A stretch of DNA of 64,000 nucleotides from Sinotaia quadrata (taxonomy: Eukaryota > Mollusca > Gastropoda > Architaenioglossa > Viviparidae): assembly GCA_028829895.1 (NCBI GenBank), contig CM054182.1, forward strand, positions 61,783,379-61,847,378. The letters run 5' to 3'. The position numbers and the translations under genes were made by a program. Of the stretch, positions 25,601-64,000 are shown in pieces. The notes under the pieces are model-generated. The model ran no database searches. It was not told where the DNA came from and saw only the letters and a program-made list of their open reading frames with translations. Each line of letters opens with the position of its first letter. Positions within the stretch are counted from its first letter, which is position 1.

Positions 25601-25602
25601 AG

Positions 25603-25900
25603 ATGTATATTTAATGAACAAGGTTGAGTGGTCATTTTGACATTATGTATATTTACTGAACAAGGTTGAGTGGTCATTTTGACATTATGTATATTTACTG
25701 AACAAGGTTGAGTGGTCATTTTGACATTATGTATATTTACTGAACAAGGTTGAGTGGTCATTTTGACATTATGTATATTTACTGAACAAGGTTGAGTGGT
25801 CATTTTGACATTATGTATATTTACTGAACAAGGTTGAGTGGTCATTTTGACATTATGTATATTTAATGAACAAGGTTGAGTGGTCATATTGACATTAAGC
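25603..25900. repeat. 42-bp tandem array, seven copies
   Basis: Near-identical units GTATATTTACTGAACAAGGT plus TGAGTGGTCATTTTGACATTAT. A period of 14 codons keeps the minus frame open (MTTQPCSVNIHNVK repeats). Confidence 0.96.
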
Positions 25901-28819: not shown

Positions 28820-29074
28820 CTAACGCTTGACGATGTTACCCACTCGAGCCTGCTCGATCTTGCGCCGCACCTGGTTGCAGTGCAGCGAGAGTTCTGCGTG
28901 CTGCATCTTGAGCTGCTCTAGCTTCACACGCAGGTCGTCCCCCTCATCCTTGCGCTCTTCGTAGTCACGCAGCAATGGTTTGTTCCCCAGCAGGCCGCAG
29001 CTCTGGCGAAGACGGTGGTTATCGATGCGCAACGAGTCCCTGACCTGCTTGGTTCTGGACAGAATGTCTCGTTT
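28820..29074 (-). CDS. CCDC96: CCDC96 coding exon 12 (terminal)
   Basis: Acceptor TCTTTCCAG. Encodes KRDILSRTKQVRDSL to the C-terminus ARVGNIVKR and TAG. Strongly G/C-ending codons, unlike the AT-rich 5' exons. Confidence 0.96.
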   Translation of the reverse strand, partial: KRDILSRTKQVRDSLRIDNHRLRQSCGLLGNKPLLRDYEERKDEGDDLRVKLEQLKMQHAELSLHCNQVRRKIEQARVGNIVKR

Positions 29075-41000: not shown

Positions 41001-44000
41001 TGTTGCTCTGTAAGATAAAGTTTCATTCTGAAAGATAAAGTATTAGAAAAACATAAAAGTATCAACTCTGAGAAACTACAGTATCACTCTCTAAGACAAA
41101 AAATATTATTCTGTAAGATACATTCTATAAGACAAAAGAGTCATTCTGCAAGACACAAATAGCTCACTTTATAAGACATAAAAGAATCTCTCTATAAGAC
41201 ACAAAAGTCTTAACTCTGTAAGTAACAAAAGAATCACTCTGTAAAACAAATATATCACTCTATAAGATGCAAAAGAATTGCTATGTAAGACATAAAAGAA
41301 TTACTCTTACAGACACAAAAGAATTGCTATGTAAGACATAAAAGAATTGCTATGTAAGACATAAAAGAATTACTCTTACAGACACAAAAGAATTGCTATG
41401 TAAGACATAAAAGAATTGCTATGTAAGACATAAAAGAATTGCTATGTAAGACATAAAAGAATTACTCTTACAGACACAAAAGAATTGCTATGTAAGACAT
41501 AAAAGAATTGCTATGTAAGACATAACAGAATTGCTATGTAAGACATAAAAGAATTACTCTTACAGACACAAAAGAATTGCTGTGTAAGACATAAAAGAAT
41601 TACTCTTACAGACATAAAAGAATTGCTATGTAAGACATAAAAGAATTACTTTTACAGACATAAAAGAATTGCTATGTAAGACATAAAAGAATTGCTATGT
41701 AAGACATAAAAGAATTACTCTATAAGATGCAAAAGAATTGCTATGTAAGACATAAAAGAATTGCTATGTAAGACATAAAAGAATTACTCTGTAAGACACA
41801 AAAGTAGAAACTAAAGTATCATTCTGTAAGATACAAAATAATCAAACTGTAAGACAAATTATAACTTAAAAGAACCAAACATATCACTCTTTAAGAAAAT
41901 AATGTCACTCTCTTAAATACAAAAGTGTCACTTTGTAAGATATAAAATTGTCGCTCTGAGAGGGAATTTATGTTGATATTACATGCCAGATCCATCCAAT
42001 ACTTACCATGCAAGACCTTAGGAAAACAACATGACAAACTGTTAACTTTGCTCACATCTTTGGTCCAGTATAACATATATATTTCATTTCACAATAGAAA
42101 TTTATCTTTAAAATGGGAGAGTAATAGACAAATTTAGGAATACTCTGTAGGTAGAAGTAAGTAGGGATTGTAATCCCGAGGGAATTGCAGAGGACTTCAA
42201 TTTTCTTTACAAAATTTTAAGCTCTCAGCCATGATCTTGAGTTTATCATAGCATGAATAAGAGCTGTAATGTTTTTTTAAAAAGAGTTTGATATAGTGCA
42301 AGTGAGAATAAAGAAGTGCAATTTCAGTTGTCTGTCAGAACAAAATTAAAGATATTTTTAACTGACATTCATGCAGACCAGAAGCAAACAATCCGATGAA
42401 CCAGGGCTTTCAGTTTTTACATTCTTGATTCTCTTGATACCATTTGATTTCAATCAGTGTTTCAACTCTGTTGCTGATGCCTACGCAAGGAATAGCACAC
42501 TTGGTAACATTTTTGTTTACTTAGTTGTATATTGAGCAATTGATTATAAGTATAATTATACTTGCAGCTGAGCAAGCAAGAGAAAGAGCACAACCTAATT
42601 TGGAGTTAGTCCCCTTTCAAAATAACAACATAATATCCAGCTTGAGTTCCAATAAAAAGATTTCAACCCAAAATCTGAAAATGTTTCATAATGTCTTGTT
42701 GATTTCAAATAAAATAATTTGACCTGACAGCCTCTATGATACTATTACCACTTTGAAAGCGATTCATAATGTCTCATTTGATTTCAAATACAATCAATTT
42801 AACCTACAGACTATAGTGCATTATTTCCACTTTGAAAGTGCTTTATGAATGTTTTGTTTGATTTCAAATAAAATTATTTCAACTCTTAATCTATATGGTA
42901 TTATTTCCACTTTGAAAGTGCTTTGCACTGCCTCTTTTGATTTAAAATAAAATTATTTTAGCTGACAGTATATAAAGCATTATTTTCAACTCAAGTGCTT
43001 TGTAATGAATCTTTTTATTTCAAATAAAGTTATTTTAATCCACAGCCAAATGGTATTACTTCCACTTTGAAAGTGCTTCATAATGACTATTTTGATTGCA
43101 AAAAGAAAAATTTCACCCACAGTCTATAAGGAATTATTTCCAGTTTTGAAAATGCTTTATAATATCTTGTTTGATTGCAAACAAAATTATTTCACCTCAC
43201 AGCCTATATGGGATTATTCTATCTTTGAAAGTGAATTGTAATGTCTAGTTTGATTAAAAACAAAGTTATTTTAATCAATTGATATTTATTAGGTAGCATA
43301 ATAAATGTCAAATTTCACAAAGCGTATTGCAAGTATTGATGAGAGAAAAAAAATCATTATTCTATCCTATTACAGCTGAACTTAACTCACTGAAAGCTGC
43401 TGGTATAACATCCACACACACACATATAGCCACAATAGTTGTTAGAAATGTCATTCATTAACACTACTCATCTTGACTTTTTGCTGTGAGAATATTTTAC
43501 TGCTGAGAGTAACAATCAAAGTATCTCATTTCATCTCCTGTAAGCGGACTGCGGACACTAAAATAACACAGAATTGATGTGTAGCTCTAACAGATGATGT
43601 ATCCAAAACAATCTCTAACCTGTGGAATGGGAGATTCAGATCTTTCCTTTTCCTCTGCAATTTTTTCACTGGATTCTTCTGTTTCTTCTTCTGTTGGCAA
43701 TATTTCATCACCCCTCTCTTCTTCAAGAGGCTTCTCTCCACTCTCTTCTCCAGCTGCTTTTACTTCTTCTTCATCTTCTTTCTTTTCTTCTTTACCAGTT
43801 TCATCTGAAATACAAACCAATCAGCATGCACTTTCAAAGGTCAGGGAGCACACAATTATTATCAATAATATAACTAGCAATATGTATTTTTTAAACTGAG
43901 AAAATGTTCTAATTGAAATGAAAGAGAAACAAACAATTATAAAGCATTTGATTTTGAATGTTCAGCTATGTTTTGTCACTTAACTTCCTTAATTAAAGAC

Positions 44001-47000
44001 CATCTTCATTTCAATTGTTTGAAAGTCTAAATTTAGTTGAATCTCCCTTTTTTCCCATTAGAAAGGGAATAATTAAAGGTCTAATTAAAACCACTTTCAT
44101 TAATTATATATTTTTAAATCAAATTTTTAAAAGCAAAACTTATACTCTTACAAAACAATATATGGCATATGAAACAATATGGACAGTATCTGTACTGCAT
44201 TTATTTGGGAGATACACTTCACAAAATGGAGAAGATGCTACAGTAAGTTAAATAATACAGTGAACACTTGCATAATGTTGGATATACAGTGTATATAACA
44301 AAATTTTGATTAAGTTAGACCTTCTATAAATGCTTGTGTATTCAAATAACATTAGAATCTGTGTATAATGTTAACCTGTTTGCATTAAACTTGGATTGTT
44401 GGACTCTACAAACAAGCTAAAAACCTATCCAGCCAATCAGAAACACTGTTGCAGATTGTTTTGACTTTGTTCACTTTGTGTTTCTCTGGTGATAAGTTCC
44501 TGTAACTCTATTTTTTTTTTTTATGAATTAAAGTACCTTCATTAATTAAATGTTTTCTAAAACAAATGTAAAGGAAAACAGGTCAGAAAAGCAATTTCAC
44601 TAAAACAAAATAGGAAATTATAGAAAAACATAAGAATGGTGTCAATTCAAATGTGAAAATGGCTGAGTATGACTTTTAATGAACCCTCAACAACAGATTT
44701 TTGTAGGTCTGTTGCAATAATTAAATCCATATCTATTGTTCAATCAACAATTATTTCACTGTTTAAATTATTTTTCTATTGTAATACTCATACTTGCTTA
44801 ATGGTGACTACACATAATGTTACTTGTTTCATCTTGAATTATTAATATAATGTGAGAATATACAGTACATTAAATATATAACCTTCAACAACTGATGTCT
44901 CGGGCACTTCATCATCAGGAGCATGAGCCACACCTTCTGATTGGACTTCTGTTTCCCCAGGAGCGTGATCTGTATTCAAACAAATATTTTTTTTTTAAAT
45001 GACAGAAAACAAAAATCATCAATTTTTAATTTTCATATAAATAAATAAAACTTTGAAGCACAAGTAACATATATAGGAAGCCAGAGAATGCACTATGCAT
45101 TTTATTATTATGCATTGTTTAGAAGCACACAGATGGCCAATCATTACTTTAAAATTAGATTTAAATAATCCATAACCAATGCTGAAAGAAATCTCAGTAA
45201 TAAAAGCATTCTTATAAGGATGAAGACACAGTGTATAGAAGGTAATGATTCCAATTAAAATGTGAACACAATATTTAGAAGTTAAAGATCAAGTAAAGAA
45301 GAATCTAGACAACCATGCGAATGAGCTTAATCAGTAGATTAAGGTGTTCTGTGTATAAAATTTAAACTCATCATCCCATAGGATATTGCAATGTGCAACC
45401 AAAAGAATGCATTTCTACAGGATATTTTATGTTGCCAATTTACACAAATTAGCTCGACAATGACAAATAGGCCAAAAAGCCACTTTTTTTACTGAAAGTA
45501 AGACACTTGACAAAAGAAAATTGAGCTCTGTATGAATGTCTCATGTTACTGCAAACCTTGACTGCATATAGAACAAAGAAGCATCCTTGACTTGACTACA
45601 AGCCCAGAGCATTTTAACCACTTTGTATTGTCATTTGGTGATCTCGTGCATGACCAAGAGCTCTTTTTTTATTCCACTTTTAAAACTAAAATAATAGCAT
45701 TTATGACATTTTGTTGGATACTAGAATTTTGCAAGGATATTGATGCTGCTGAAATGTCTCAATTTTATACATACATATGTTGAAGTGGATTCCTATTTAC
45801 TTGGTCACCAATGATTTCTATATTAAAATTGTATACATTTTATTTTGAAACTAATGATTCCTACACAAATGTTCAACAATAAAGAAAGTTAATAAAAACA
45901 AAGATTAGAAGTCAATAATTTTTATGAAAATTATTTCTTGTTGAAGAAAAAGACTTGTCTTGAGAGCCCTCTTCAAAATGCAGTGTGCCTTAGACAGAAA
46001 AGTACCTTCAAGCAAGCAATTTTGATGAATCAAGGAAAAATAAAATCAGCAGTAACTCATGTAATAATTTGATAGTCACAAAGTCACAAAACATGCACAA
46101 AGACATAAAAATATAAGTACATAGCATGCAAAGTTTGTGACTTTGAGATGCCAAATGCTGGTGAGAATATGTCATTATACAAATGATTGATATTGTGTTT
46201 TGTTAATATTCTACATGTATTAGATCAAGTGTTCCACTAAAAAAAAAGTTCCTGATAATGAAGGGTAAATTGTACACTGACTTTTTTTTAAAAGTTAGTT
46301 TGAAAGTGCTATACATTACATTTGTTGTCATGAAATAAATACTGAAAATGTTTTTGAGGTATGTCCCCATCTAAGACATTTAATAGAATGACTATTTACC
46401 TAAAATGACATAAAATAAAATAAAATCTTCTAGGAATGTTGCTGATTTTCTTACAGTAAAAAATAACCAACCAAAGTCCTGAACAACCTTTACCCCTAGT
46501 AGTGCAGTTTCATTGTTTTCAACAAAATGAGAAATATTTTAAAATCATTATAAAATTTCTAAATAGGAATGTGAAATTTAGAGACAGTTGTCTTTATACA
46601 AGTAAAAATTAAACAAATACCAAACGAAACTCAAATAAAAGTCAAATGAGCAAAGACATCAAAATAAGTGATTCACAAAATGTTTCTTTTGCATTCCTGC
46701 AAAGAATATATATGCAACATAGAATTAATTATTAATAAATAAAGGTACACAGCCCTGTGAGTGCATGTGAATTAGAGAGTTAAAACAAAAGAATGCTTTG
46801 TCCATTGCATTACCCAAAGTGATGATATGATAACAGGCTTTATCCTGAGCCTCATATTATCAAAGCATTAAAGTGGTAAATCTGCAATAACTAACTTGGA
46901 CACTCAGTTTTAGACTTCATCTTAATTTTATAGCAGTTATATAACATATAAAAAGTATATGCATATAATAATATAAATAAATATTCAGGAACTGTTAGCA

Positions 47001-49908
47001 TTCCAGAATTTCCCCCCAATTTTTGTCCAAATATCCCAGTATTTTTACTTGATGATTGAGACTATTCAAACTCACAAATACTTTTGAAAATTGGCACTTA
47101 GAAAAGATTTTTTTTCAAATCATCAAATAAAAAATATCTGGTAAAATAATGTTTCACCAGAACAGATAAACAAAATTGTCATTATATGAAAATAACATTG
47201 AAAATTAACAAAATGTGTGCCTCATTCTTCAAACTTTTCCAAAAAGTCCAATTCAAACAACAAACAAAAAAATCTAAGAGGTTTCATTAATGTGAAATAT
47301 TACTCAGACTCAATACTAAAGAAAAAAAAATTGCAAAAGTCAATTTTTGATAAGCTTGCACAAAGACACATACCCACATATCATAAAATTGTAATCTAGC
47401 CAAAAACAATCAAGGTTGCTGGCAAAAGTAGCCTGGCTCATGCTGTCTGTCCTTAATCAAGATCCATACTAAGAAAAGCCTGTGCTACTGGAAGATCAGT
47501 GTAGTTAAGAGGACATATATATTTATATTGAAAATTAGTTTTGAATTTCTGAGTATTTTATTTATTTAGTGTTTTATTATGGAAAAATGTGCAAAAGTTA
47601 TTTAAGGATTTACTAAAGAATAGCACACATATAAATCACTTAGATTCTCACATGTATGCGTTCATAAACATTAATGTATTCATGAGCAAAATTGACTATG
47701 TATGCATATACATGTAAAACTGTGTACAAGCTTATTTTTTATTATAAATGCAAATTAAAAACAATATAATGTGCAAATTCAAACAAATTCATGCAAACCA
47801 GCAACAGCCTCAACATCTGTCACTTCTGCAACAGGAGCCTCATCGCTGGAACTCGTAACTAAAGGTTCAACAGATTTTTGAACATCTTGGCTTTCTGCTT
47901 CAGCCTCTTGAACACTGTGGCTTTCAGCTTCGGCCAACTCTTCACTGTCATGCGGAACAATTTCAACTGTGTCCTGAGAAACAGGATTCTCAGTTATGTC
48001 ACCTTCCCCAGGTGTAAGTTCTTCTGTCCCTTCTCTTTCTACAGTTGACTTTTCTGGTTCAGCACCCTCTGTCACCTCTTCCTGTTAAAACATGTTTTAT
48101 TTTAATATGCTACTAAAGTAAATGAAGACCTGAATAGTATATGCTGTCACAAATAGTTGAAAACATGAACATTATCTTAGCAAAATAACAGAAGACCTGA
48201 ACATTCAAGGATATTCAAATGACTGAATATATGAATTTAATATAATACTAGATATCTGCTTGCAGCTTCGTTTGCATAAATGTCTTTTCCAGAATAAGTT
48301 GCTTATTGTAAAAATATTTTATAGTACTTTTTGAAATTAAGAACCTTAATACAATATGTCCAAAATGTTTTCTTTTACACTAAGTGTCATGAAAATCTTA
48401 AATATTAGTATGTCAATGTTTATTTTAAAGGTAGGTTTAAATTTGGCTTTTAATTTGAAGTGCATATTATATGGTTTTCTTCTTAATCACCCTTGCCAGT
48501 TTCTTTTTGTGTCCAATACCATTGCAACTTTTAAACCATAAGCATAAAGCCTTTGTGCCAAAAGAGCTGGAATATTCGGTGTAGAGAGAAAAACAGCTAT
48601 AAAGATAGAAAGAGACAGAGAAAGAAAGAGAAAGCAAGAGTAAAAGAAAAAAAAAGAAAGAGAACAAGAGAGAAAGGGAGTAAAATGAGAGAAAGAAAGA
48701 AAGTGAAGAAAAAGTGAAAGAAAGAGAAGGGGAGAGCAAGAGAGAAAACAAAGAAAAAGAAAAGAGATGGAGTAAAAAAGAGACATAGAGAAGAAAATGA
48801 GAGGGTGAATGAAAGAAAATGAAAAGATTGAATAAATTAAAAGAGATAGAAAGGAGGAGTGTTTTAGAGAAAGAGTCAAAAAGAAAGTAAAAAGGTAGGG
48901 TATGAGAAGAGGGAGACAGCAAAAAAAAAAAAAAAGAAGACTGAGACACACATTCACAAAGAGAAATCACATAAGGAAAGGACAGAAAGAAGGAAATTAG
49001 AGAGGGAAGGGAGAATGAAAATGTCGACAGAGACATGAGAGAGAAATAAATGAATGAAAGAAAAGACTGGAAGAAATGAAAGATTGAGAATAGAAAAGAG
49101 AGAATGTAATAGTGGGAACAAGAAAGACAGAAAAAGAGGAAATAGGAAACAGTAATATGACAGCATGGCATATAATTGCTAAGTATCCTGAAGCAAGTAA
49201 GCATCCAGAGTGACCTCATAATTTATTTCATTAACATTTTTCCTCACAGGATCTGGAGTAGACTTTTTATCTGTTATGTTCTCTAGATTAAAGTGGTGCC
49301 CACTGAATGCACTGCTATTCCTAGCCCACTATGCTGTGCCCTGTCTCTGTGAATGGCTTTCTATGAGCCAGCCATGTAAGTTGCCTTCACAGAGGTCAGA
49401 GTGATATACAAGCCATTATAAACTATGACTTGCAAGCATGCACTTTATCTCTATTGGTAAGCTCCCATATATACTTGAATATTTTCATAGTTTTAGGGTT
49501 ACTAGTTAGCTCCCTTCTGAGATAGTGGTAAACTATTATATAAACTATCTTGATTCTAGGGGAGTGAGATATACAATAATAAAAAAAAAAGCCTGATCAA
49601 AATCCATACAATATTTCTTTTTTTACTTAGTCCCAACCAAACATTGAGACATCATTTTCATCATTTTATTATGTATATAAATGAAATGACTAGAGATCTA
49701 AACATTATAATTTATATGCTCATATGCTCACTTTAAAATGTTGAAGACCCCAGAAATATGCACTATTTAAGTGTTAGAAAATTGATAGATATAATGCACA
49801 TTTGAAAATAAATAATATTAAAATAAATTTTATTATAAGAGAATACAATGAACACATCTTATGAATCACTACTAAAAACAATAGATAATAAAAATCTCCA
49901 ATTTCTCA

Positions 49909-49992
<84 letters not shown>

Positions 49993-50205
49993 TAATATTA
50001 CATTAGAAATAGAATGGAGACTTTTCTTTACAAAAATAAAAATTATTTAAAAATGAAATTCATAGAAGAAAGTAAACTCAACAAGAAGCTTAAAGCACTT
50101 GTATAATTTTGTTCATGCACAGAGATTACAGAATGAGGTTACCAGAGGCTTTACATATGTTCATATAATAGTGCTCAAAAACACTGAGATTTACTTGTGT
50201 GTGTG

Positions 50206-50249
<44 letters not shown>

Positions 50250-50262
50250 TGTGTGTGTGTGT

Positions 50263-50317
<55 letters not shown>

Positions 50318-50712
50318 GTGTGTATAAGTGTTTGTGTTTGTGTGTTTGTGTATGTGTGGAATTGTATCAGATTCCATTCTAGACAAGAAAAATATTATAT
50401 TTGCTTTCCTAGAAAATATGCCAAAAGTTTAGGTTTGAATTTTAAAGTTTAAAACTGGTTAATAATATAAAAGGATGGAATCCATAGATTGACATAATGC
50501 CATTATCCATGACAACTAAAGTAGCACTTCAGGTTGGTCATCCTAAAATGACATTTTAGAAATCATAGCAGAATGTCTATTCCAAACAGTAACATCTGCA
50601 AGTCATCCCCTTGATGATTCCAGAATGTGTTTTAAACATCCATATAATTCTTGACAATTCATCTGCCTGGGCAAATGTACTCCCCTCACACACAAAAAAA
50701 ATGTATACACAT

Positions 50713-50780
<68 letters not shown>

Positions 50781-51494
50781 CAACTGATATCAGAAATCAT
50801 ACCTTTGAGCAAAAACTAGGAAGCAGTGCTTTTTGATTCGTATTCTCATTAGATAAAAATAACATTATATTATCCCTGTCTGCCCATCAGTTTAACTGCA
50901 CGTCTCTTTCTGTTATTTTGATACTAAACAGTAGGGATTTATAGGCACTAATAAAAAAAAATTGCATCAGACATAACTTATACAAGCTGTAAATATCTCT
51001 AAATAGACAACATCATCCAGAATAAGACATATTCTGCTCTCCTCCCAGTGTTTTAGTTTATCTTGATTGGGAAAACGAATGATAATTATTCAACCTATAG
51101 CAGAGTGTTTGTGAGACAGCATAATCGTAAGTCATTAAGATCGGCATTTAAACTATTTAGTCTTCCTTTCTCTTTTTAGTTATGAATTCATAACCTTCTG
51201 TTAAAAGCTTGAAAGATGCCATCTCTGTCATTTTAAAATAAAGTTTTCTTAAAACTGTCAGACATCAAAGATTACATACCATATATTAGGTTAGTATTTT
51301 GTTTAAAGCTTTTTAAATTTAAAGAGAAACGTTATTTTTATCTAGTAGCATAACTTTAGCTATTATTAAATAACCAGTTTCGCTGTGACTATAATGAACA
51401 AACAAGGACTGAGTGAAAAGGACAAGAAAGATGTTAGATGGAAAGAAACTAACAACACTTCAGAGCAATATTTTCTTACCGCGTTGTCTGCCAT
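28820..51494 (-). CDS. CCDC96: Coiled-coil domain-containing protein 96 (CFAP184), 12 coding exons
   Basis: In studied ciliates and animals CCDC96 pairs with CCDC113 on motile-cilium doublet microtubules, near the nexin-dynein regulatory complex and radial spoke 3. Exons in transcript order: 51494-51480, 48081-47799, 44969-44883, 43804-43620, 40453-40309, 37452-37325, 35837-35687, 34946-34753, 33667-33548, 32306-32214, 31173-31036, 29074-28820. The joined frame is 597 residues (human about 555) with matching phases at every junction. Residues 1-190 are acidic, Glu/Ser/Thr-rich and probably disordered. Residues 270-597 are charged coiled coil; the last 200, including LHLIDFEQLKIEN (about 442-454) and RDILSRTKQVRDSLR (516-530), match the CCDC113/CCDC96 coiled-coil domain (DUF4201). 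All introns are GT-AG except a probable GC-AG intron after exon 8. No signal peptide or membrane segment. Confidence 0.94.
29305..29985 (+). mobile_element. Dispersed repeat family 1, copy c, in CCDC96 intron 11
   Basis: The longest copy: its 5' half matches 1600-2100 and its 3' half (29835-29985) matches 11515-11725. Same orientation as the other two, opposite to CCDC96. It links the two partial copies into one ~680-bp element. Confidence 0.65.
30300..31010. repeat. ~23-bp degenerate array in CCDC96 intron 11
   Basis: Over 25 loose units of CACACTGAAATAGACACTTGA. Heavily mutated, so old. Confidence 0.88.
31036..31173 (-). CDS. CCDC96: CCDC96 coding exon 11
   Basis: Acceptor TTGCTAG, donor GCTCAG|GTGCCT, 46 codons in phase 0 (ELLKLRKKITSTVQVLTHLK and on). 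Codon third positions are clearly richer in G/C than in exons 4-10. Confidence 0.95.
31250..31470. repeat. ~55-60-bp array in CCDC96 intron 10
   Basis: Three to four units with CACTAGCTAAACAACTAAAT and CAAACATCAGCTAGATTACT. Confidence 0.88.
32214..32306 (-). CDS. CCDC96: CCDC96 coding exon 10
   Basis: Acceptor AATTTCAG, donor AATGAG|GTTAGG. Encodes LHLIDFEQLKIENQTYNEKI, the most recognisable segment of the CCDC113/CCDC96 coiled-coil domain. Confidence 0.96.
33355..33477 (-). pseudogene. Partial duplicate of CCDC96 exon 9 with broken donor
   Basis: Near-copy of 33478-33608, covering the 3' half of exon 9 and the start of intron 9. The donor that reads TCTAAG|GTCTGT in the true exon reads TCTAAG|ATCTGT here, and the acceptor half of the exon is absent, so it cannot be spliced as an exon. 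Confidence 0.8.
33548..33667 (-). CDS. CCDC96: CCDC96 coding exon 9
   Basis: Acceptor TATTTTTCAG, donor TCTAAG|GTCTGT, 40 codons in phase 0 (DIEQFLVNENRKESE to KKKEQQLKSK). Its 3' half and following intron are duplicated just downstream at about 33355-33477. Confidence 0.94.
34753..34946 (-). CDS. CCDC96: CCDC96 coding exon 8, probable GC donor
   Basis: Acceptor GTGTTGCAG. Encodes a coiled coil ending SRSGKPIAPK. The junction that keeps the frame into exon 9 (DIEQF) is CCAAAG|GCATGT, a GC donor. The nearest GT, four bases on, would shift the frame. Confidence 0.9.
35225..35635. repeat. 27-bp tandem array in CCDC96 intron 7
   Basis: About 15 units of AAAATATCAGCTCCAGATAG plus CCATACC. Well preserved in the middle, decayed at the right end. 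A period of nine codons keeps a minus frame open. Confidence 0.96.
35687..35837 (-). CDS. CCDC96: CCDC96 coding exon 7
   Basis: Acceptor TGTGCTCAG, donor ATGG|GTAACA. Encodes the start of the conserved coiled coil (LAEYFRKKKSDERQDYDKN). Confidence 0.94.
35975..36190. repeat. 55-bp tandem array in CCDC96 intron 6
   Basis: Four units containing TGTCAATTATTTTGAGTAAA and GGTATAG plus a T-rich run, spaced 53-55 bp apart. Confidence 0.93.
37325..37452 (-). CDS. CCDC96: CCDC96 coding exon 6
   Basis: The acceptor is TTTAAAAAAG|AT, poor next to the AG but with a pyrimidine-rich run just upstream; it is the one that keeps the frame. The donor CAG|GTATAC is good. A MITE ends 78 bp upstream of this exon. 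Confidence 0.85.
37531..38063. mobile_element. 533-bp pogo-like MITE with TA target duplication, in CCDC96 intron 5
   Basis: Ends are CAGTAAAACCCC (left) and GGGGTTTTGCTG (right), inverted repeats with one mismatch, flanked on both sides by TA. The similarity continues inward (CAT.ATAATG and ACAATAAT blocks). Such CAGT-AAACC-type ends with TA duplication are typical of pogo/Tigger-group elements. It has no transposase frame and is non-autonomous. It contains the hairpin at 37821-37964. Confidence 0.75.
37821..37964. repeat. Near-perfect 64-bp inverted repeat, 16-nt loop
   Basis: Arms 37821-37884 and 37901-37964 are complementary at 63 of 64 positions, with loop 37885-37900. It lies inside the MITE and inside a transcribed CCDC96 intron. 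Confidence 0.95.
39285..39560. repeat. 43-bp tandem array in CCDC96 intron 5
   Basis: Six near-identical units of AATCAAATCAAATTGAATAA plus CAGACAATGAAACAGACACAAAG. Confidence 0.96.
39590..39925. repeat. 38-bp tandem array in CCDC96 intron 5
   Basis: About nine units of ACAAGGAACCAAATTGAAAC plus ACTAACAATGAAATAGAC. Its motif GAAA.AGACACAA resembles the 43-bp array next to it, so the two may share an origin. Confidence 0.93.
40309..40453 (-). CDS. CCDC96: CCDC96 coding exon 5
   Basis: Acceptor TCTTACAG, donor CCAG|GTATTT. Encodes SGSFADGERPESSS through LRPDTPEFP, the linker before the coiled coil. Confidence 0.9.
40450..41050. repeat. 20-bp array with 40-bp higher-order unit, CCDC96 intron 4
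   Basis: 20-bp units TAAGATAAAGTGTTGCTCTG and GAAGATAAAGTTTCATTCTG-like alternate, giving a 40-bp higher-order repeat at 40740-41030. Confidence 0.94.
41100..41810. repeat. 23-bp array with higher-order pattern, CCDC96 intron 4
   Basis: About 25 units of AAGACATAAAAGAATTGCTA plus TGT, with ACTCTTACAGACACA variants recurring every three to five units. The motif is related to the neighbouring 20-bp array. Confidence 0.94.
42640..43285. repeat. ~79-bp array, about eight copies, CCDC96 intron 4
   Basis: Units with TTGATTTCAAATAAAATTAT and ATTTCCACTTTGAAAGTGCT, spaced 77-80 bp. CACTTTGAAAGTG in each unit is a 13-bp palindrome. Confidence 0.92.
43620..43804 (-). CDS. CCDC96: CCDC96 coding exon 4
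   Basis: Acceptor GTATTTCAG, donor CCACAG|GTTAGA. Encodes a very Glu/Lys-rich segment (DETGKEEKKEDEEEVK and on) typical of the N-terminal half of CCDC96 proteins. Confidence 0.9.
44883..44969 (-). CDS. CCDC96: CCDC96 coding exon 3
   Basis: Acceptor GAATACAG, donor GAAG|GTTATA; both ends in phase 1. Encodes HAPGETEVQSEG and a second HAPDDEV-like segment in the acidic region. Confidence 0.87.
44975..47790. other. CCDC96 intron 2, nothing further seen
   Basis: AT-rich unique sequence without tandem arrays or recognisable coding blocks; frames of about 60 codons are within chance. Confidence 0.6.
47799..48081 (-). CDS. CCDC96: CCDC96 coding exon 2
   Basis: Acceptor TTTTAACAG. Encodes an acidic stretch (EEVTEGAEPEKS and on) with a repeated SHSVQEAEAESQDVQ-like segment. 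The donor GCTG|GTTTGC is weak but the only one that joins exon 3 in frame. Confidence 0.88.
48250..49690 (+). mobile_element. Dispersed repeat family 2, copy b, split by a purine tract, in CCDC96 intron 1
   Basis: The 5' part (48250-48480) and 3' part (49330-49690) match copy a at 15790-16530. Between them lie a ~560-bp GA-rich tract and unmatched sequence. The two arms keep the same order and orientation as in copy a. Confidence 0.55.
48590..49150. repeat. GA-rich homopurine tract, CCDC96 intron 1
   Basis: About 560 bp of irregular GAAAGAGAAA with few pyrimidines on the plus strand, so the CCDC96 pre-mRNA carries a long polypyrimidine run. The very long open minus frames rich in Ser/Leu/Phe here are artefacts. 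Confidence 0.95.
49910..50778. repeat. CA (49910-49990), GT (50196-50370) and CA (50712-50778) tracts, CCDC96 intron 1
   Basis: Three long dinucleotide runs in alternating orientation within 870 bp. The GT run carries TATG and GTTTGT breaks. Confidence 0.97.
51480..51494 (-). CDS. CCDC96: CCDC96 coding exon 1 (5 codons)
   Basis: ATG GCA GAC AAC GCG followed directly by GTAAGA gives MADNA and a good donor in phase 0, which fits exon 2 (GAA GAG GTG). An in-frame TGA lies 16 codons upstream, so no longer N-terminus in this exon is possible. Inferred from frame and splice signals; an extra exon inside the 3.4-kb intron cannot be excluded without a transcript. Confidence 0.75.
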
Positions 51495-51623
51495 TTTGGT
51501 TGTCAAGGAGTACGAACGGAAGGAAGCAGAGTATCTTTTTCAAGTCAACGCGCGAAATCTAAATTTCAGCGCCGGCATTTGTGAATTATTGAGACAACAT
51601 TTTAGTTGTCAAATAAATCAATA
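51495..51623. promoter_or_regulatory. Divergent TK1/CCDC96 promoter region
   Basis: Only 129 bp lie between the CCDC96 ATG (51494, minus strand) and the TK1 ATG (51624, plus strand), so both transcripts must start in or around this segment unless an upstream non-coding exon exists. It is locally CpG- and GC-richer than the flanking introns and contains an E2F octamer. No TATA box is apparent in either direction. Shared promoter is an inference from spacing. Confidence 0.75.
51550..51557 (-). promoter_or_regulatory. E2F-type site TTTCGCGC
   Basis: The minus strand reads TTTCGCGC, a perfect match to the E2F/DP consensus TTTSSCGC, 67 bp upstream of the TK1 ATG and 56 bp upstream of the CCDC96 ATG. 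TK1 is a classic E2F-regulated G1/S gene in animals, so the site is where one would expect it. Binding itself is inferred. Confidence 0.7.
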
Positions 51624-51710
51624 ATGTCACAGGTAGCTCCACTTCCTGTGTTAAAGCGACTTTCTCAACCACACGATGTGTTTGACTACCAAGAAAGTGG
51701 TCACATCGAG
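51624..51710 (+). CDS. TK1: TK1 coding exon 1
   Basis: Encodes residues 1-29, the poorly conserved N-terminal extension before the P-loop. It ends in phase 0 at GAG|GTAAAT. A TAA stop in another frame overlaps the ATG (TAATG). Confidence 0.9.
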
Positions 51711-54700
51711 GTAAATAAAAAAATGTAATTCTTGTTCACATTATATTGTACTTGTAGTTGTAGGCTTATAACTATTACTATAATTATAAAGTATAAGTGT
51801 GACCCACTTAACTGCATGACGTTCAATTTTTAACCATAATTTGTAATTAATGCACTGTCTCAAGATACAAGCATTATCTTTAATAAATGTTATTTACTGC
51901 AGTAGCTTCTCAAATCTTATTATTTTTTTTAAATAGATAGGTCATTTATGAGCATCAAATGGCTAATATTTAAACAAGTAGGCCTATTATTTCGTTGTAC
52001 TTGTAGGCCTAACCATTATTTAAAATTATTTACCTTTTTTTTTCCAGTTAATCATTGGACCCATGTTTTCTGGCAAGACGTAAGTCATGATTTAATGTGT
52101 AATGTGCCAAATTAATCTCTGTAAGTCACACATTTAAATTCTCTATTAATTTAGTATTACTGTAGTGTTATATAAAATCTAATTGTTTTTTTTTTAAAGT
52201 GCAATTAATGAATTATACTTGTTACTAATGTTAGTTGTATTTAATAGGCTAATTTAAACTATTTAATCAGTGCAGTTTTAACTTAGTAGCCTATACTCGC
52301 TATAGGCCCTACTATATGATGAGGCAAAATGCAAGATTTTTTTTTAAAAGACCTTAATTTTTATAATATAAATTTAATTAATATGTAGTGTCACTGTCAG
52401 TACTAATTCAGTAATTGCATAAATATACTATAGTAATCGAAATATTTTATAACTAAGTATTTTACTAAAATTTTTAGTTAGGCTAGATTTTAAAATATAA
52501 AATTTCAAATTTAATTTCTTGTTAGTAGTATGATTATGAGTATGAGTAGCCCTAATTATTATTCTCTTAATATTTTCTTTGTAAAATACACAGAAATTAT
52601 TGATTAGAATATTTATTTAAATACTTCGAGTTTATTACTTTTGTTTCAGAACGGAACTTATAAGGCGTTTAAAACGATATCGTATTGCACAGTACGCCTG
52701 CTTGATCATTAAATACTCTGGTGATTCACGATATGAATCCGATGGAGTTGCTACCCATGACAGGTAATTATCTTTTGCCATTTCATTTGTTGAATGAAAC
52801 TGGTATAAACTCAAGCCTGCTTGGTTTGTGTATGAATCTTGAAAAATTGCTGAAATTTGCAAACCATGGTTTTCAGGCCTAGTGTAATCTGCATTTGGTA
52901 ATTTTAGTTAATCTGCTCCATCACTTACACTACAGGAGGTATCTGATATATGTATCCTTTTTATGTTTCCCTGCATATATGGGGACAGTCTTTAGGAAAT
53001 CTTTATAAAATCTCTCCACATTTATGACTGTCAATATAAAGTGTCATATCTTTGAACCACAAGTTTTCCAGTATAAAAGATTAAAACAGTTCACATTTCA
53101 TGTTCACCCATCATTTTTCAGTTTCACTGTTTTGTTAACGTACCTACATCACATCTGCCTGCAAACCATCTTGTCATTTATTTTCAACAACCAGAGTACA
53201 ATATTTTAAGGTTTTCTTAGTCAAGCGGTTGTTTTGGAAATTGATTGCTCTAATTGCAGCCATGAAAAAAAGTTAGTGTTTTCTTAGTCAAGCGGTTGTT
53301 TTGGAAATTGATTGCTCTAGTTGCAGCCATGAAAAAAAAGTGAGTGTTTTCTTAGTCAAGTGGTTGTTTTGAAAATTGATAATTTTTTTGATTGCTCTAG
53401 TTGCAGCCATGAAAAAAATTAGGGATTTCTTTGTCAAGCGGTTGTTTTGGAAATTGATTGCTCAAGTTGCAGCCATGAAAAAAGTTAGGGTTTTCTTAAT
53501 CAAGCGGTTGTTTTGGAAATTGATTGCTCTAGTTGCAGCCATGAAAAAAGTTAGTGTATAATACTATAAGTTATTATCTTGATATAAAAGTTTTAGATGT
53601 TATTCATTGCAAGCAAAAAGGTGAGCTGATAATAGGAAGTAATGATTCCTTTAAACTATTTAATTCTTTTACTATAGTAGGTAGTTCCATCCTATTTTTC
53701 AGATTTGATTCAGAGTAAAACAAATGTGTTTACATAATAGTATTAGATGATATAAGGTTGCTTGCGAAATTCTAAGACTTAAGAGAAAACCTTTAGCAGT
53801 TTATGAAATATCATCATTTGAATGTACAAGTTAGTCGCCATCAATTAACAAGGCAAATAAATGCTCATTTTTGATAACATTGTAAAAGTAAAAATCTTGG
53901 TTATGAAATGACAAAGTAAAAATCTTGGTTATGAAATGACAAAGTTAAAATTATAACAGAAGGATATATTTGAATGATAAAATGTAGATATTTTCAGAGA
54001 ATTTATTATATTTTACAAACTGTGTGCAAACATAGCTCTTCATTGCGTAATCACACTTGTAATATAAAGTGCATATTCAAGACCTCATAATTCCAAGAAA
54101 CTCTTGGCTTCTGACTAGTTTTCTGGTAGGAAGCATCTTTGTACCTAAATTTCTGGGACAGCAAATAGTCTTGTGTTGGTAAAGCAGAGTATGATCACAA
54201 CCAATAAACTAGACACATTTGCAGCAAAGATATTTGACTTGAATCTATAGACAATATAAGTTGAAAAGGAACATCTAGATCTTGCATACATGTCAGGAAA
54301 AGTTGGAAGTGCATGGTTCACATGTATAATAAATGATTAATGGTTAGTTCAGATATCACCATCTAGTTCAATGTTTATTCATCTTGTTTCTTAACATACA
54401 AGTTTTTATTGTCATGTGTTTATTAAAAATATGTATTACACAATCTTTTGTGTTCCCATTATTTTTGCTTATTGGTAATTTATAATTTGCCATTTTCTAA
54501 TCAAAGGCAGATTTTGCCAGCCATTTCAACTGATAAGTTGCTTCCAAAACGGCAAACAGCACTGGCATATGATGTCATTGGAATTGATGAGGGACAGTTT
54601 GTAAGTTCTTGTTAACAACTGAAATGCATTTTTATTTTTTTTTAGAACAAATTCTCAAATCTAATGTTAATTGTTTTTCTCTTTCTATTTAGTCACAATC

Positions 54701-57700
54701 TTTGTACCAGTTCTGTTTTTATTTATTATAATACTTTGGTGCAATGTAATTTTTATTTGCTTCAAATTTGTATATGACTGTATTAGAATTATTAATAGCA
54801 AATGTTTATAAAATACTAACTATATTGTAAACCAGTTTAAAAGGGACACAATCTGCAGTAGTTGTGAAAAATAAGTAATTGGTTGAAATGTATTGTAGAG
54901 CAGTTACGGGAAGAGTAATAAGTAGACAAATATTATGAAAACAGTTACATAACAAAGTATTTTTTATGTCATTGTAACATTTTCAATACAACAGTCAACA
55001 AGTGGATTAGAATTTGTGAATGTTACTTACTGAAAACATTACTTATAATACATTAGAAGTAAAAGGTGGGTTATGTAAAGAGCAAATGGTCGACTAGTTG
55101 ATGTTCCTAGTCTTTGACAAACAAGGTGTTTTGGCATGGTTTTAATACTGCTAGTGGGTAGTTTTATCACTTTAAAAGCTGGCCTTAAAATTAGAGAAGT
55201 ATCTTTGTGCAAAACATAAAGTAAATGGAATAGATTAGTTTTGCTTCCACTTTCTTTCAGTTCTCTGATGTTGTAACCTTTGCTGATCAGCTTGCCAACC
55301 TTGGAAAAATTGTCATTGTTGCAGCACTTGATGGCACATTTCAGAAAAAGGTAAGTTGGAAATGTGAACATTCCTGATCAAACAGCAATAAATTAATACC
55401 TGTTTCACCCACTTAAATAGAAGCAAAGAAAGTCCGAATAGTTTGGTTGAGTTGTATGCACATTTTTTTTTTGAGACATGAATGCATGATCAGAATGAAC
55501 AAACTTAAACTCATATATGAAAACAAAACAAAACTGAAGATAATGCATGAAACCAAATGAATCGACATGCAGACTTACAGTATATAACAGATAAATGTAG
55601 TTAGAAATATACAGTTTGAAACAATGACACAGAAGAGATAGCGATGGTCTTGCTGACCAGGGTCTTTAGCAAATTCCAGGTAGATGGGCTCTGATAAGCC
55701 AACAAACACTGACATTTTGACTTGTAGTTTGCTTATTTTTATTTATGAATATTATTTTTCTTTCCATTTTCTGTCTTACACCTATTTCATATTGTAAAAT
55801 AACTTTGACTTTACTGGGTATTAAATTTTGTTTAATTTGTAATTTATAACATCAACTCAATGCATGTTCAATCAAATACAACCAGCTTTTCTCTAAAGGT
55901 TACATACTGATTTTATATTTCACAAAAAAAATATTATTTCCCCTATTCAACTTTATTTGACAAATTTTGTTGATCCATTTCTCTTCTATATAAAGGTACA
56001 TATTCACTTTACATTATGCTGTGGTGTTCAAATATAGTTCAACATGGCATGTTTATTAATTAGGTTACTACAACCTTAGAACAAAGAAGTAAAAGTTTAA
56101 TTTTTCTTATTCACAAATAACCCACCTAGTCTGATATGTTGGCCATAGCAACATTACTCAAACCTGACATAGCCCTACCAGAGAACAGCACTGAATGGCC
56201 CTCACAGCCAATCAGAGCTTTGTTTACAAATCTGTCAACATCCTGTTTTAAACATCACTAAAGTGTCTGCTGTGTTTTTGAAAGCTTTTCATGTAGTTTT
56301 TTTCTTTTTTTTTACATAACGCAAAATGCAGTTGAACCCACTTAGCTTGACCTCTGTTAACTCGCCAACCTTGTTATGTCAACGTTTTTGAAGTGGAACC
56401 ACCAAAGTCCCTCTTTGTCTTAGCATTTTCTCATCGGTTATGTCGATTTTTTTATGTCGCTGAACCCTAATATCTCGAGCACAAAAGAGGGCCAAATTCG
56501 CCACTTAACATCAGTTATCTCGATCCCCGTGACTAATCCGATCGCCAACTTTTGAAAATGTTAGGGTTATCAATGCCACTTCACCATCTCGCTAATGATA
56601 AATGACCATGGCTTGTTAACATCCTGCAGCTTAAACTTAATAAGGGCATTGTTTCCCTCAGTAGCCAATGATGTGCATCTAGTGACTTACTATCAGTTAT
56701 GATCTTTATATGTACAACACAAACTTTTATTTTTAATTTGATCAATCATTGCATAAACTAAACTTTGCCGGCAGAATTTCATCGCACAGATTGCATTTCG
56801 CCGTGTCACTATCCAATCGCTTGGCGTGACTCCACCAGACTATGTCTTGCCCATATTACAACATTATTATTTAATTTATTGATGTTAAAATACTGACAAG
56901 TTTGTTTACTGAAGTCTTATTAACATGCTTCACGCGTGTTGTTAATACAAGCAAAAGGAAGGGTGCGAGCTATGGTGATCCATGTCATCCATAATTAGAT
57001 CTAGGTACAGAAGCTGCTCAGTGCATGAGCCTACCCACGGCCTGTGTCATCAAATAAAGTCTACCCCAAAATGAATCACCTGGGGTGGGGGTGGGGGTTA
57101 TATTTTAATTAGGAGCTTTTATTTTAAAACAAAATATCTGTGGGACTGGGAGTATTTGAGTGGAGTTCATAGGTCACTACACAGAGAGCTCTGTACTTTT
57201 GATTTCTAACAGCAAAGATCATGTGACTGAAGTCATGTGATAGCAACACACATCATTGGAAATGGCAGCCACCTTTGTTTATCTTTATCTTTTGTTTTTG
57301 GTCATGTTATCACGGGTACCCATTAACAATTTTACTACCCTGGTATTAGCATGGCAAGGGGTATCCGGGCACCCATTGACTGATTGAGAGCACTAGTCCC
57401 AACATAGTTGTTTTGCAGGAATAAGTAGCATTTAGTGCACAAATTTGTGGGCTTTTTTTTTTTTTTTTTTTTTTGGGGGGGGGGGAGCAAAGTGTGATAG
57501 TTTAATACAATTAATTATTTATTGATGCAACTTAACTAAAGAAGATGATTTCATTATCTAGCAAGCTTTTGTATTTTATTTAATGTGACAACACCATTTT
57601 TGAAAGAAAAATAATTATACTATTACTAAGTGTTGAATGTGTTTTTGCTAAAAATGGGGCCTTGCAGATAGTTATCGATGTGATAGAAACATTTGCTTGG

Positions 57701-59293
57701 TTTGGATTTCTTTTTGCGCTTGACCACACATGGCTTCTGTATCACTAAGAACAAAAAATAAATGTGTAACAATAAGCTTTCTCCTGATACCACTTTTATT
57801 AGTAGAACTTTAAAACTCAAGCTTTGGTAATAAATTAAATAACTTGGTTCATTTTGAAATTCTTGCCATAAATGCATTTGAATGAATGTTTTCTCACTGA
57901 AAATTGCACTGAAAAGCATACTCATTCCTCTATGAAACTAGTATTTAAAATTTGTAGCTTCAGCTGCAGTTCAGTGCAAAGAGTTTCCATTGGTTAACCA
58001 AAAATCGTCTGCTTCAAATTCTAGTAATGGCTGCTTCGCATGCAAACTTAATGTTGACACTTAGTAATGCTTTCATTAAATTCAGCTTTTGTGTGTAAGG
58101 ATTCATTTAATAATTGCAAGTTAATTTTAGCAGCTATATATGATTGCAAAATCGATTGTCATTGCCATTTCATAACTGAAGATTTTTCATTTTTACAGTA
58201 TATTGAAAATGAGCATTTATTTATCTTGTAAAGTGATGATGATTAACTTTTATATTTAAATGTCGATATTTCATAAACTATTTGAGGTTTTCTGTAGAAT
58301 TTGCATGCAACCTTATATCGTCTAATACTCTTATGTAAACACATTTGTTTTACCCTGAATCAAATTTGTAAATTGGTTGGGAGTCCTGCTAAATGAGAAA
58401 ACACACACATCTATGCATTTAATTATTTTTTTAAAATGCTATTTAATATGAGATTTTTAATTTTTTTTTTTTAAATCCTGATCAACTGTTCATCAGAAAA
58501 GTTTGCGGTTTTTCTAAAGCAATAAATAAAACTGCTATTGTGCAAAATAACAGATGTACAACACTTTAAGAATAGTTTGAAATAAATATTAAACTCCATG
58601 TATATAAGTTTCAATTATTATCATTTCTGAAACAGGGAAATATATTCTTAATAATTTTTTTTGTTTCAGGCCTTTGGTGACATTTTGAATTTAATACCAA
58701 CAGCTGAAAGTGTGACAAAACTGACAGCTGTCTGTACAATTTGTTTCAAACCTGCTGCCTTCACACGCAGAAAGACCCAGGAGAGTGAGGTAATAAGTCA
58801 CTACTTGTGTTACTATAGTCTAGTCATATTTTTTGTTTCGTTCAGCATCTTTTTACTAAACTGAAATCACAAACAACTTTTCATTGCCATTCAGAGCATA
58901 GTTTGTCACACATTTTTATAAGAGTTTCTTTTCCACATCTTATGATTAAATCTAATTTCTGTTCTCTTTTCATTGTGTACTGTGGTGCTCACATCCGAAA
59001 CTGGATGGGTTTTTTTTATAACATTTAGTCTAGTGGTACTGAGCACAGCACAGTTAGGTCACCCTAATACAAAGCCATACAATAACTTTTAACATCTTGC
59101 ACATTTGGAATTACAGGTTGAGGTGATTGGAGGAAATGACAAATATCTCGCAGTATGCAGGGATTGCTTCACTGTTCCTTTGCCCCCTAGCCCAGAGCGT
59201 AAGGTGCTGCAGGAGTTCAACACACCTATCAAGGAGGAGACCATGTTAGAGCGAAGGACTCAGCGACGGTTATTTGGAAAAGTTCTGTCATAG
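51624..59293 (+). CDS. TK1: Thymidine kinase, cytosolic (TK1), 7 coding exons
   Basis: Phosphorylates thymidine to dTMP with ATP in the pyrimidine salvage pathway; the family is cytosolic and S-phase linked. Exons: 51624-51710, 52048-52079, 52650-52763, 54507-54600, 55261-55350, 58670-58789, 59117-59293. All introns are GT-AG and the joined frame is 237 residues with no break (human TK1 is about 234). Visible: P-loop GPMFSGKT at residues 33-40; THDR at 75-78; catalytic-glutamate motif DEGQF at 105-109 (Glu106); AALDGTF at 130-136; structural-zinc cysteine pairs C161/C164 and C193/C196; [10 protein letters not shown] substrate-loop region at 180-189. The start lies in an A-at-minus-3 context and gives an N-terminus of normal length. 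The short C-terminal tail has no KEN box but carries RRLF at 229-232. Divergent from CCDC96, with an E2F site between. Identity is near certain; exon edges were placed by eye. Confidence 0.97.
52048..52079 (+). CDS. TK1: TK1 coding exon 2
   Basis: A 32-nt exon after a strong T-rich acceptor (TTTCCAG). It encodes the [11 protein letters not shown]-loop strand and two bases of the following Thr codon; donor AC|GTAAGT. Confidence 0.94.
52650..52763 (+). CDS. TK1: TK1 coding exon 3
   Basis: Starts after TTGTTTCAG, completes the P-loop Thr40 and runs to the THDR motif; donor AG|GTAATT splits Arg78. Confidence 0.95.
53208..53560. repeat. ~67-bp tandem array in TK1 intron 3
   Basis: Five units with TTTTCTTAGTCAAGCGGTTG, TTTTGGAAATTGATTGCTCT and GCAGCCATGAAAAAA. 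The only sizeable minisatellite in the TK1 introns. Confidence 0.94.
54507..54600 (+). CDS. TK1: TK1 coding exon 4
   Basis: The acceptor is TCAAAG|G, chosen because the CAG three bases later would break the frame. It carries the catalytic DEGQF and ends in phase 0 at TTT|GTAAGT. Confidence 0.93.
55261..55350 (+). CDS. TK1: TK1 coding exon 5
   Basis: Encodes [10 protein letters not shown] through [10 protein letters not shown] between TTTCTTTCAG and AAG|GTAAGT. The residues after DEGQF and the AALDGTF strand are typical of type II thymidine kinases. Confidence 0.96.
55351..58669. other. TK1 intron 5, mostly unique AT-rich
   Basis: Longest TK1 intron. Holds the pogo-like fragment at 56331, a T-run joined to a G-run at 57450-57484, and otherwise no supported feature. 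Confidence 0.6.
56331..56600 (+). mobile_element. Truncated pogo/Tigger-like terminal fragment in TK1 intron 5
   Basis: Begins CAGTTGAACCCACTTAGCTT, followed by several TTAACTCG / TTATCTCGAT / TTATGTCGAT motifs. This resembles the ends of Tigger/pogo elements. No matching inverted end was found downstream, so the copy appears truncated. Confidence 0.4.
58670..58789 (+). CDS. TK1: TK1 coding exon 6
   Basis: Follows a 3.3-kb intron, acceptor TTGTTTCAG. Contains the LTAVC..C zinc pair (C161, C164) and the lasso-loop start AFTRRK; donor GAG|GTAATA. Confidence 0.96.
59117..59293 (+). CDS. TK1: TK1 coding exon 7 (terminal)
   Basis: Acceptor TTACAG. Encodes VEVIGG, the second zinc pair (C193, C196) and a basic 40-residue tail ending at TAG. 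The tail has an RRLF motif near its end. Confidence 0.96.
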   Translation, partial: VEVIGGNDKYLAVCRDCFTVPLPPSPERKVLQEFNTPIKEETMLERRTQRRLFGKVLS

Positions 59294-62718: not shown

Positions 62719-64000
62719 CACTTTAAAGAACTCCCAAATCAACCCCTGCCATCAGTGAGACCAGACATCTCCCCCTTCCCCCTTCAGACTCACAACTCAA
62801 AGTCAACACCAACCCTCCCACGAAAGCAGAAATCCTAAAAGCCTTGAAGATTTTGAAAAATGGGAAAGCAGCCAGCCCAGATGGAATTCCCCCAGAGGCA
62901 CTCAAGGGTGACCTTTCTACCACAGTCAACCTGCTGCTGTCTCTACTGCAGATGGTTTGGAGGGAAGGAAGTGTACCAGCAGACTGGAAAAAAAGGCACC
63001 TGGTAAAATTTCCCAAGAAATGATATCTAGGATCCTGCAAGAACTGGTGCCATGCTACTGTCAGTACCGAGCAAAGTACTGACTCACATTATCCTTGACC
63101 GACTGAAAGATGCAGTGGAAGAAAAACTTAGACCAGAACAAGCGGGCTTCAGGAAAGACAAATCGTGTACAGATCAGATAGCAACACTCCAAATCATCAT
63201 CGAACAATCCTTGAAGTGGCAGTCAACACTACCTTAACTTCATTGACTTTCGTCAAGCGTTTGATAGTGTGGACAGAGAAACCATCTGGCAGCTCCTCCA
63301 CCACTTTGGTATCCCTCAAAGTTTCATCACCCTGTTCTAGCAACTTTATGAAGGCGCCTCATATCAAATTGTCCACAATGGCATATTGACAGAGGACTTT
63401 GAGGTGAGAACAGGATGCATGCTCTCCCCAATTATCTTCCTGTTAGTGGGTGATGCATCAGACAACTAAAACAGGAAAAACCATAATCCAGTGGTCCCTG
63501 ACTCAATTCCTTGGACTTGGACTTTGCGGATGACTTGTGCCTGATGTCCCAGAAATGCCAACATATGCAACAGAAAACTGATAACCGGCCCAAGAAGCAT
63601 CCCAAGACTGGACTGCAGATCAACCTAGAGAAGCCTGAAATCATGACCCTGTTAAAAAAGCAGCAGAAGCCAATCACCCTGGAGACAACGTCTGAAAGAA
63701 TCACCTCTTTCACATACCTGGGCAGCATTGTATCAGCAACAGGTGGTTCTGACGAGGACATCAAAGCCAGAATCGGGAAAGCTAGATATGCCTTTATTAC
63801 CCTGAGATCAGTCTGGAGGTTAACATCCCTATCTGTCCTCAACAAACTACGAATTTTCAACAGCAACGTTAAGTCTGTCCTCTATGGCTCAGAGATCTGG
63901 AGAGTCACCAACGCCCTAACCAACAAACTCCAAGTATTTATCAATGGCTGCCCTCACAACATACTAAAGGTCAGGTGGATAGACAAACTAAAGAACACTG
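62719..64000 (+). pseudogene. Decayed non-LTR (LINE) retrotransposon, reverse-transcriptase region, cut by window edge
   Basis: Plus-strand frames give, in order, a pre-RT block (KNGKAASPDGIPPEALKGD), a thumbprint VPSKVLTHIILDRLKDAVEE...RPEQAGFR (from 63067), a palm motif A block (FIDFRQAFD, about 63237), a FADD catalytic block (about 63524), and a C-terminal block with YLGSIVSATGG and YGSEIWR (to the edge). The blocks lie in different frames, with an in-frame stop at 63021-63023 and further stops and shifts, so no functional protein is encoded. The order is that of LINE ORF2; I lean to an RTE/jockey-like clade but cannot fix it. No endonuclease domain is seen upstream, so the copy is 5'-truncated at about 62719. 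The 3' end lies beyond the window. Confidence 0.88.

Follow-up and report, generated by a model that had tools for sequence, protein, structure and literature searches.

A thymidine kinase gene and the ciliary gene CCDC96 start head to head in Sinotaia quadrata: a candidate shared promoter of a probably old gene pair

Why should the gene of an S-phase enzyme begin beside a gene of differentiated ciliated cells? Thymidine kinase TK1 is an E2F target, and CCDC96 is a motile-cilium protein and normally post-mitotic. In a stretch of 64,000 nucleotides from the gastropod Sinotaia quadrata, hereafter the window, the two genes are adjacent on opposite strands and arranged head to head. The start codons reported in the initial annotation, that of CCDC96 at 51494 on the minus strand and that of TK1 at 51624 on the plus strand, 129 bp apart, were both confirmed in the sequence.

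The assignment of the genes, likewise made in the initial annotation, was supported by gene models and Pfam. The minus-strand model (28820..51494) comprises 12 coding exons in consistent phase and encodes 597 amino acids plus stop. Its first coding exon (51480..51494) reads ATG GCA GAC AAC GCG (MADNA) and is followed by the donor GTAAGA. The model matched the domain CCDC113_CCDC96_CC (PF13870) at 2.7e-45 and the CCDC96 chain 9fqr_Ks of the PDB at 4.2e-84. Among the chains of 8j07 the match to CCDC96 (2.8e-77) was better than that to CCDC113 (1.7e-16), so by sequence similarity the gene is CCDC96/CFAP184 and nearer to CCDC96 than to CCDC113. On the plus strand, the TK1 model (51624..59293; coding exon 1 at 51624..51710) has 7 coding exons in consistent phase and encodes 237 amino acids. 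It matched the Pfam TK domain (PF00265) at 2.4e-65 and PDB entry 2j87 at 2.6e-65; its nearest solved structures are thymidine kinases, including chains named cytosolic, and on these matches we identify the gene as cytosolic thymidine kinase TK1. Both start codons are preceded by an in-frame stop (51542-51540 for CCDC96, 51603-51605 for TK1) with no other in-frame ATG between. The start MAD was shared by 14 of the 20 CCDC96 relatives fetched, out of 120 among the matches listed.

We consider it probable, at roughly 0.7, that TK1 and CCDC96 form an old divergent pair with one compact, CpG-rich promoter of ~130 bp in common. Both transcripts would begin inside the gap between the start codons (51495..51623, no strand assigned). 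E2F would bind an octamer at its centre and drive TK1 at G1/S, and CCDC96 would use the common open core of the promoter, where ciliary factors would act; E2F may, less surely, contribute to CCDC96 too. Breakage of the pair would be selected against because one or both genes would lose their promoter. A control region common to both genes is plausible, with the gap as the candidate. Divergently paired (bidirectional) genes are defined in PMC2670823 and PMC2648788 by starts less than 1,000 bp apart; the 129 bp measured here lie between coding starts and not between transcript starts.

The composition of the gap counts for a shared promoter. It contains 7 CpG, with an observed/expected ratio of 1.61 versus 0.47 in the window, and a single CpG peak (51475-51574) spans both sides. 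This peak speaks against one alternative, namely separate promoters that partly overlap, each with elements located in the first exon or intron of the partner gene; the octamer would then serve TK1 alone, with CCDC96 as a bystander. In its favor there are two minus-strand ATGs in the gap (51600 and 51578) and none on the plus strand; in a longer CCDC96 transcript they would give rise to short upstream ORFs, and therefore the two transcript starts need not coincide. We regard this arrangement as unlikely.

Near the middle of the gap we found the E2F-type octamer TTTCGCGC at 51557–51550 on the minus strand (51550..51557), 55 bp from the CCDC96 start codon and 66 bp from that of TK1. The site consensus TTTSSCGC is represented near both coding starts; the initial annotation had described a perfect E2F octamer there. 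Among 5,000 shuffles of the 129-bp gap, TTTCGCGC occurred in 61, TTTSGCGC in 91 and TTTSSCGC in 146. In the complete window TTTSGCGC had 2 matches against 0.65 expected, and at least 2 were seen in 16 of 100 window shuffles. The octamer therefore exceeds chance modestly, not strikingly, against local composition, and it owes its credibility to TK1 being a known target of E2F. An imperfect palindrome GCGCGAAAT–ATTTCAGCGC flanks the octamer; equally good ones arose in 19 of 300 shuffles and it was dropped as evidence as not significant. The CHR variant CTTGAA at 51544 (minus), which adjoins the octamer, was discounted at an expectation of 0.143 per 161 bp.

The central position of the octamer would also suit a special case of the shared promoter that is not exclusive of it. 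Here the octamer would serve TK1 via S-phase E2Fs and CCDC96 via E2F4/5 complexes in ciliating cells, and one site used in two states would keep the pair together. We rate this dual use as quite unlikely: it concerns a single site in a single species. MCIDAS and GEMC1 are known mainly from vertebrates; a search of the open-licence literature found no paper on them in invertebrates, which carries no weight either way. Human TK1 and CCDC96 presumably lie apart in the genome, yet CCDC96 responds to MCIDAS there, so pairing is not needed for the response. For the dual use it can be said that, in PMC10023806, MCIDAS activates CCDC96 more than GEMC1 does in human AD-293 cells and both proteins interact with E2F4/5-DP1. 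According to PMC12187940, ependymal differentiation proceeds via an alternative cell cycle with E2F4/MCIDAS; this variant runs without DNA replication, and therefore ciliating cells need not need TK1. The multiciliated-cell programme of E2F4/5-DP1 with MCIDAS/GEMC1 resembles the present case in placing E2F at promoters of ciliating cells, with human CCDC96 responsive to MCIDAS, but the findings in PMC10023806 and PMC5245798 come from Xenopus and human cells and not from molluscs, and TK1 is no neighbor there.

Whether the pair is old was assessed by comparing co-location and order of locus tags in other species, the octamer being known from this genome alone. The species examined were those among the 120 matches listed for each protein search, of 1,063, 5,479 and 7,016 matches; the searches with 1,063 and 7,016 matches scored just the candidates with the most words in common. 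Excluding non-animals, arthropods, nematodes, a Branchiostoma hybrid and vertebrates represented by one gene (among them Protopterus), 29 animal species remained. In 20 of them, spanning gastropods, bivalves, echinoderms, a hemichordate, amphioxus and two corals, both genes were on contigs of identical size among the matches listed. Equal contig sizes between different species were found in 0 of 3,554 comparisons. In Haliotis, Patella, Mytilus and Asterias, the two genes were matched within a single species only. Each entry represents a 90% cluster and carries the size of the cluster's longest contig; where a cluster has more than one member, as for Porites, Acropora, Biomphalaria and Clupea among others, that contig may belong to a member other than the one named.

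Contigs shorter than 5 Mb accounted for 8 of the 20 linked species, with 121,680 bp in Porites and 591,630 bp in Lymnaea; outside the molluscs there were three (Porites, Saccoglossus and Acanthaster). Locus tags were consecutive in 3 of the 6 species with serial tags, all of them molluscs: Nucella (ACOMHN_043078/043077), Pomacea (C0Q70_01286/01285) and Potamilus (CHS0354_035120/035121). The other three were not adjacent, and Lottia, whose tags we take to be non-positional, was left out of the six. Close neighborhood across phyla may be reflected in the identical contig sizes, and adjacency is indicated by tags in three molluscs only. From these comparisons the pair probably predates the cnidarian–bilaterian split. 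The proposal of the initial annotation that the pairing may be lineage-specific is ruled out, being contradicted both by the matching contigs from corals to molluscs and by the consecutive tags.

In the remaining 9 of 29 species the genes were not on one contig, some being on small scaffolds. For Bradybaena, Biomphalaria and Clupea they were on different, chromosome-sized contigs. At least one of the two genes was on a small scaffold in Physella, Candidula, both Elysia species and Lingula, and these scaffolds may just end before the partner gene. Nematostella was counted as different, and its two contig sizes look like two assemblies.

Passive linkage, in which an ancestral linkage group holding both genes was rearranged too slowly to part them and each gene has its own promoter, would suffice for the 12 of 20 linked species with contigs above 13 Mb, but we consider it very unlikely in view of the eight short contigs, the three consecutive tag pairs and coding starts 129 bp apart in a 64-kb stretch. 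The recognised content of this stretch was TK1, CCDC96 and pieces of retroelements, with Pfam run on 10 out of 242 further ORFs in the list.

The old divergent pair with a shared promoter belongs to a known type, its partners being unusual; we found no description of a CCDC96–TK1 pairing in the open-licence literature. Neighbors kept across phyla are the likeness to ancient metazoan microsynteny, as reportedly described by Irimia et al. in 2012. Schuettengruber et al. are said to have described in 2003 a bidirectional promoter for mouse Tk/Kf (TK1-AFMID), and the initial annotation had named AFMID as the divergent neighbor of TK1 in human. For mouse, the pairing of TK with kynurenine formamidase is borne out by a row of Table 3 in PMC3121118, which lists TK/KF as a bidirectional promoter with E2F1. 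As in our pair, a thymidine kinase gene is divergent with an unrelated gene; the partner in mouse is kynurenine formamidase and not a ciliary gene, and the linkage to CCDC96 described here is in invertebrates.

The wide spread of the linkage provides a natural experiment: paired and unpaired species can be compared as to whether E2F control of ciliary genes needs or predates the shared promoter. What appeared as an oddity of a single species becomes a testable question on how E2F came to be used in ciliation. A far-reaching version, which we hold to be more doubtful than any reading above, is that one E2F-centered promoter has coupled genes for DNA synthesis and the axoneme since before the cnidarian/bilaterian split, as a fossil from an ancestral programme in which E2F served S phase and ciliation alike, and that the split came in vertebrates, where AFMID became the partner of TK1.

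Several minor observations were made. In a tree of 26 of the TK entries fetched, the TK of the window falls among caenogastropods. Babylonia has one TK copy that shares the contig of CCDC96 and a second that does not, and the tree picks neither as ortholog. In favor of the old pair, a coral-like CCDC96 (P0065) and TK (P0255) are both on contigs of 2,694 bp; if this is one contig, 381 bp are left outside the two coding regions. The match could be chance: one other contig size, 1,724 bp, coincides as well, and it is too short to hold both coding regions (2,037 bp).

Rfam gave no match in the window at the gathering threshold. We found no CCAAT, NRF1, SP1 or TATA match in 51480–51640 and no strict X-box (RFX) in 51000-52200; a loose X-box consensus had 2 exact matches in 51480-51640, and at least 2 occurred in 24 of 500 shuffles. 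The start codon of CCDC96 is overlapped by AAAATGGC (51490..51497, minus), a YY1-like motif; given how often it occurs in the window, 0.025 copies are expected per 161 bp. A direct repeat, with no strand assigned, has its first copy CATTTTGGTTGTCAA at 51492..51506 and its second, CATTTTAGTTGTCAA, at 51598..51612; the copies are identical at 14 of 15 positions, and an equally good pair arose in 0 of 300 shuffles.

TK1 and CCDC96 start head to head: beyond the in-frame stop upstream (51603–51605 for TK1, 51542–51540 for CCDC96) each gene has its ATG as the sole in-frame candidate. This bears out the initial annotation, which had placed the two starts 129 bp apart, a distance that refers to coding starts and not to transcript starts. 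TK1, a cytosolic thymidine kinase, was modeled at 51624–59293 on the plus strand with 7 coding exons (237 aa), and six of six introns are GT–AG. Its protein matches Pfam TK (2.4e-65) and the nearest solved structures are thymidine kinases, with cytosolic ones named among them. The nearest named animals among the matches listed are the caenogastropods Littorina, Babylonia and Batillaria. CCDC96 (CFAP184) extends from 51494 to 28820 on the minus strand in 12 coding exons of consistent phase, encoding 597 aa plus stop. The protein matches Pfam CCDC113_CCDC96_CC (2.7e-45), and in solved axoneme structures it fits the CCDC96 chains (4.2e-84 and 2.8e-77) better than CCDC113 (1.7e-16); its nearest named animals among the matches listed, Babylonia and Nucella, are again caenogastropods, which makes a caenogastropod snail the most likely source of the window. 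The donor sites that follow exon 2 (GTTTGC) and exon 8 (GC) are weak. The tiny exon 1 (MADNA) is credible, since 14 of 20 fetched relatives start with MAD.

The gap between the start codons (51495–51623) contains 7 CpG, with an observed/expected ratio of 1.61 vs 0.47 across the window, and as many CpG are found in 4.3% of the window's 129-bp windows. Two upstream ATGs are present on the CCDC96 strand (minus, 51600 and 51578) and none on the TK1 strand; their placement hints that the CCDC96 transcript may start below 51578. The E2F-type octamer TTTCGCGC is located at 51557–51550 on the minus strand, 55 bp from the CCDC96 ATG and 66 bp from the TK1 ATG. TTTSGCGC occurs twice in the window (0.65 expected), and at least two occurrences were reached in 16 of 100 shuffles. 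When the gap was shuffled 5,000 times with its CpGs preserved, the exact octamer appeared in 61 shuffles, TTTSGCGC in 91 and TTTSSCGC in 146. Judged from sequence, the octamer taken alone would be modest evidence for E2F control; its weight beyond this comes from the fact that TK1 was known beforehand as an E2F target. A palindrome surrounding the octamer was dropped as a signal (equalled in 19 of 300 shuffles, not significant).

Most likely, the gap is a single CpG-rich core promoter active in both directions, which would fire toward TK1 and CCDC96, with TK1 as the target of E2F. The closest precedent is the Tk/Kf pair of mouse, for which PMC3121118 lists E2F1. It is also possible that one E2F site is read in two ways, for TK1 and for CCDC96, because in human cells CCDC96 responds more strongly to MCIDAS than to GEMC1 and both factors act together with E2F4/5–DP1 (PMC10023806), and because the alternative cell cycle that operates in multiciliated cells does not replicate DNA (PMC12187940).

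A 15-bp direct repeat (51492–51506 and 51598–51612, 14/15 identical) has one copy on each side of the octamer, 43 and 40 bp away, the first overlapping the CCDC96 ATG. A direct repeat this good was found in 0 of 300 shuffles. The observed repeat contains GTTGTC, a variant of the RFX half-site. GTTGYC occurs four times within the 161 bp of 51480–51640 (0.136 expected; 0 of 500 shuffles reach four), an excess we regard as a lead and not as a test, since the motif was picked post hoc, two of the four occurrences are the repeat copies and one lies inside CCDC96 exon 1. No strict X-box was detected in 51000–52200; 51480–51640 holds two loose ones, a number reached in 24 of 500 shuffles.

Linkage in other animals was assessed from the length of the contig assigned to each protein match (the longest of its cluster). 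Both genes are on contigs of identical length in 20 of the 29 animal species with both among the matches listed, and 3,554 comparisons between different species gave no equal lengths. The 20 comprise gastropods (Babylonia, Nucella, Pomacea, Gigantopelta, Lottia, Lymnaea, Bulinus), bivalves (Potamilus, Mya, Argopecten, Ylistrum), echinoderms (Acanthaster, Patiria, Antedon, Amphiura, Diadema), the hemichordate Saccoglossus, Branchiostoma lanceolatum and the corals Porites harrisoni and Acropora muricata. Contigs are shorter than 5 Mb in eight of them (five molluscs, Saccoglossus, Acanthaster and Porites, the last with 121,680 bp) and longer than 13 Mb in the remaining 12. Babylonia has a second TK on a different contig from CCDC96. 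Serial locus tags from six species are consecutive in Nucella, Pomacea and Potamilus and non-consecutive in Elysia crispata, Elysia chlorotica and Bradybaena; the pairing in other animals is thus read from co-location and tag numbers. Lengths differ in Physella, Candidula, both Elysia species, Lingula, Nematostella, Clupea, Biomphalaria and Bradybaena, several of which sit on small scaffolds or probably have their two lengths from separate assemblies. The pair seems to be truly broken in Bradybaena and Clupea, and perhaps in Biomphalaria, whose clusters contain several members. Two coral-like sequences, P0065 (CCDC96) and P0255 (TK), are 76–83% identical to those of Porites and Acropora and share a contig size of 2,694 bp, which would leave 381 bp outside coding regions. 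This agreement may be due to chance, because the other coincidence, at 1,724 bp, involves two proteins too large to both fit.

In a tree of 26 TK rows, a long branch (0.8, support 100/100) separates eight rows, namely seven from caenogastropods including the window's TK and one further row, from the remaining 18 animal TKs. KEN is an APC/C degron; beyond residue 150 it is missing from the window's TK1 and present in eight of the 26 rows, in one of them not C-terminally. The TK1 C-terminus (59117–59293) reads FGKVLS vs FGKENA in Batillaria and in another TK row, P0127.

Among the window's other listed ORFs Pfam covered 10 of 242. Retroelement pieces of reverse-transcriptase type are located at 63031–63999 (DUF6451, 4.9e-13; RVT_1, 3.2e-05 and 0.005, both short of Pfam's cut-off). 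Translation yields repeated peptides at 19961–20620, 20869–21270, 25582–25899 and 35180–35612, apparently tandem arrays.
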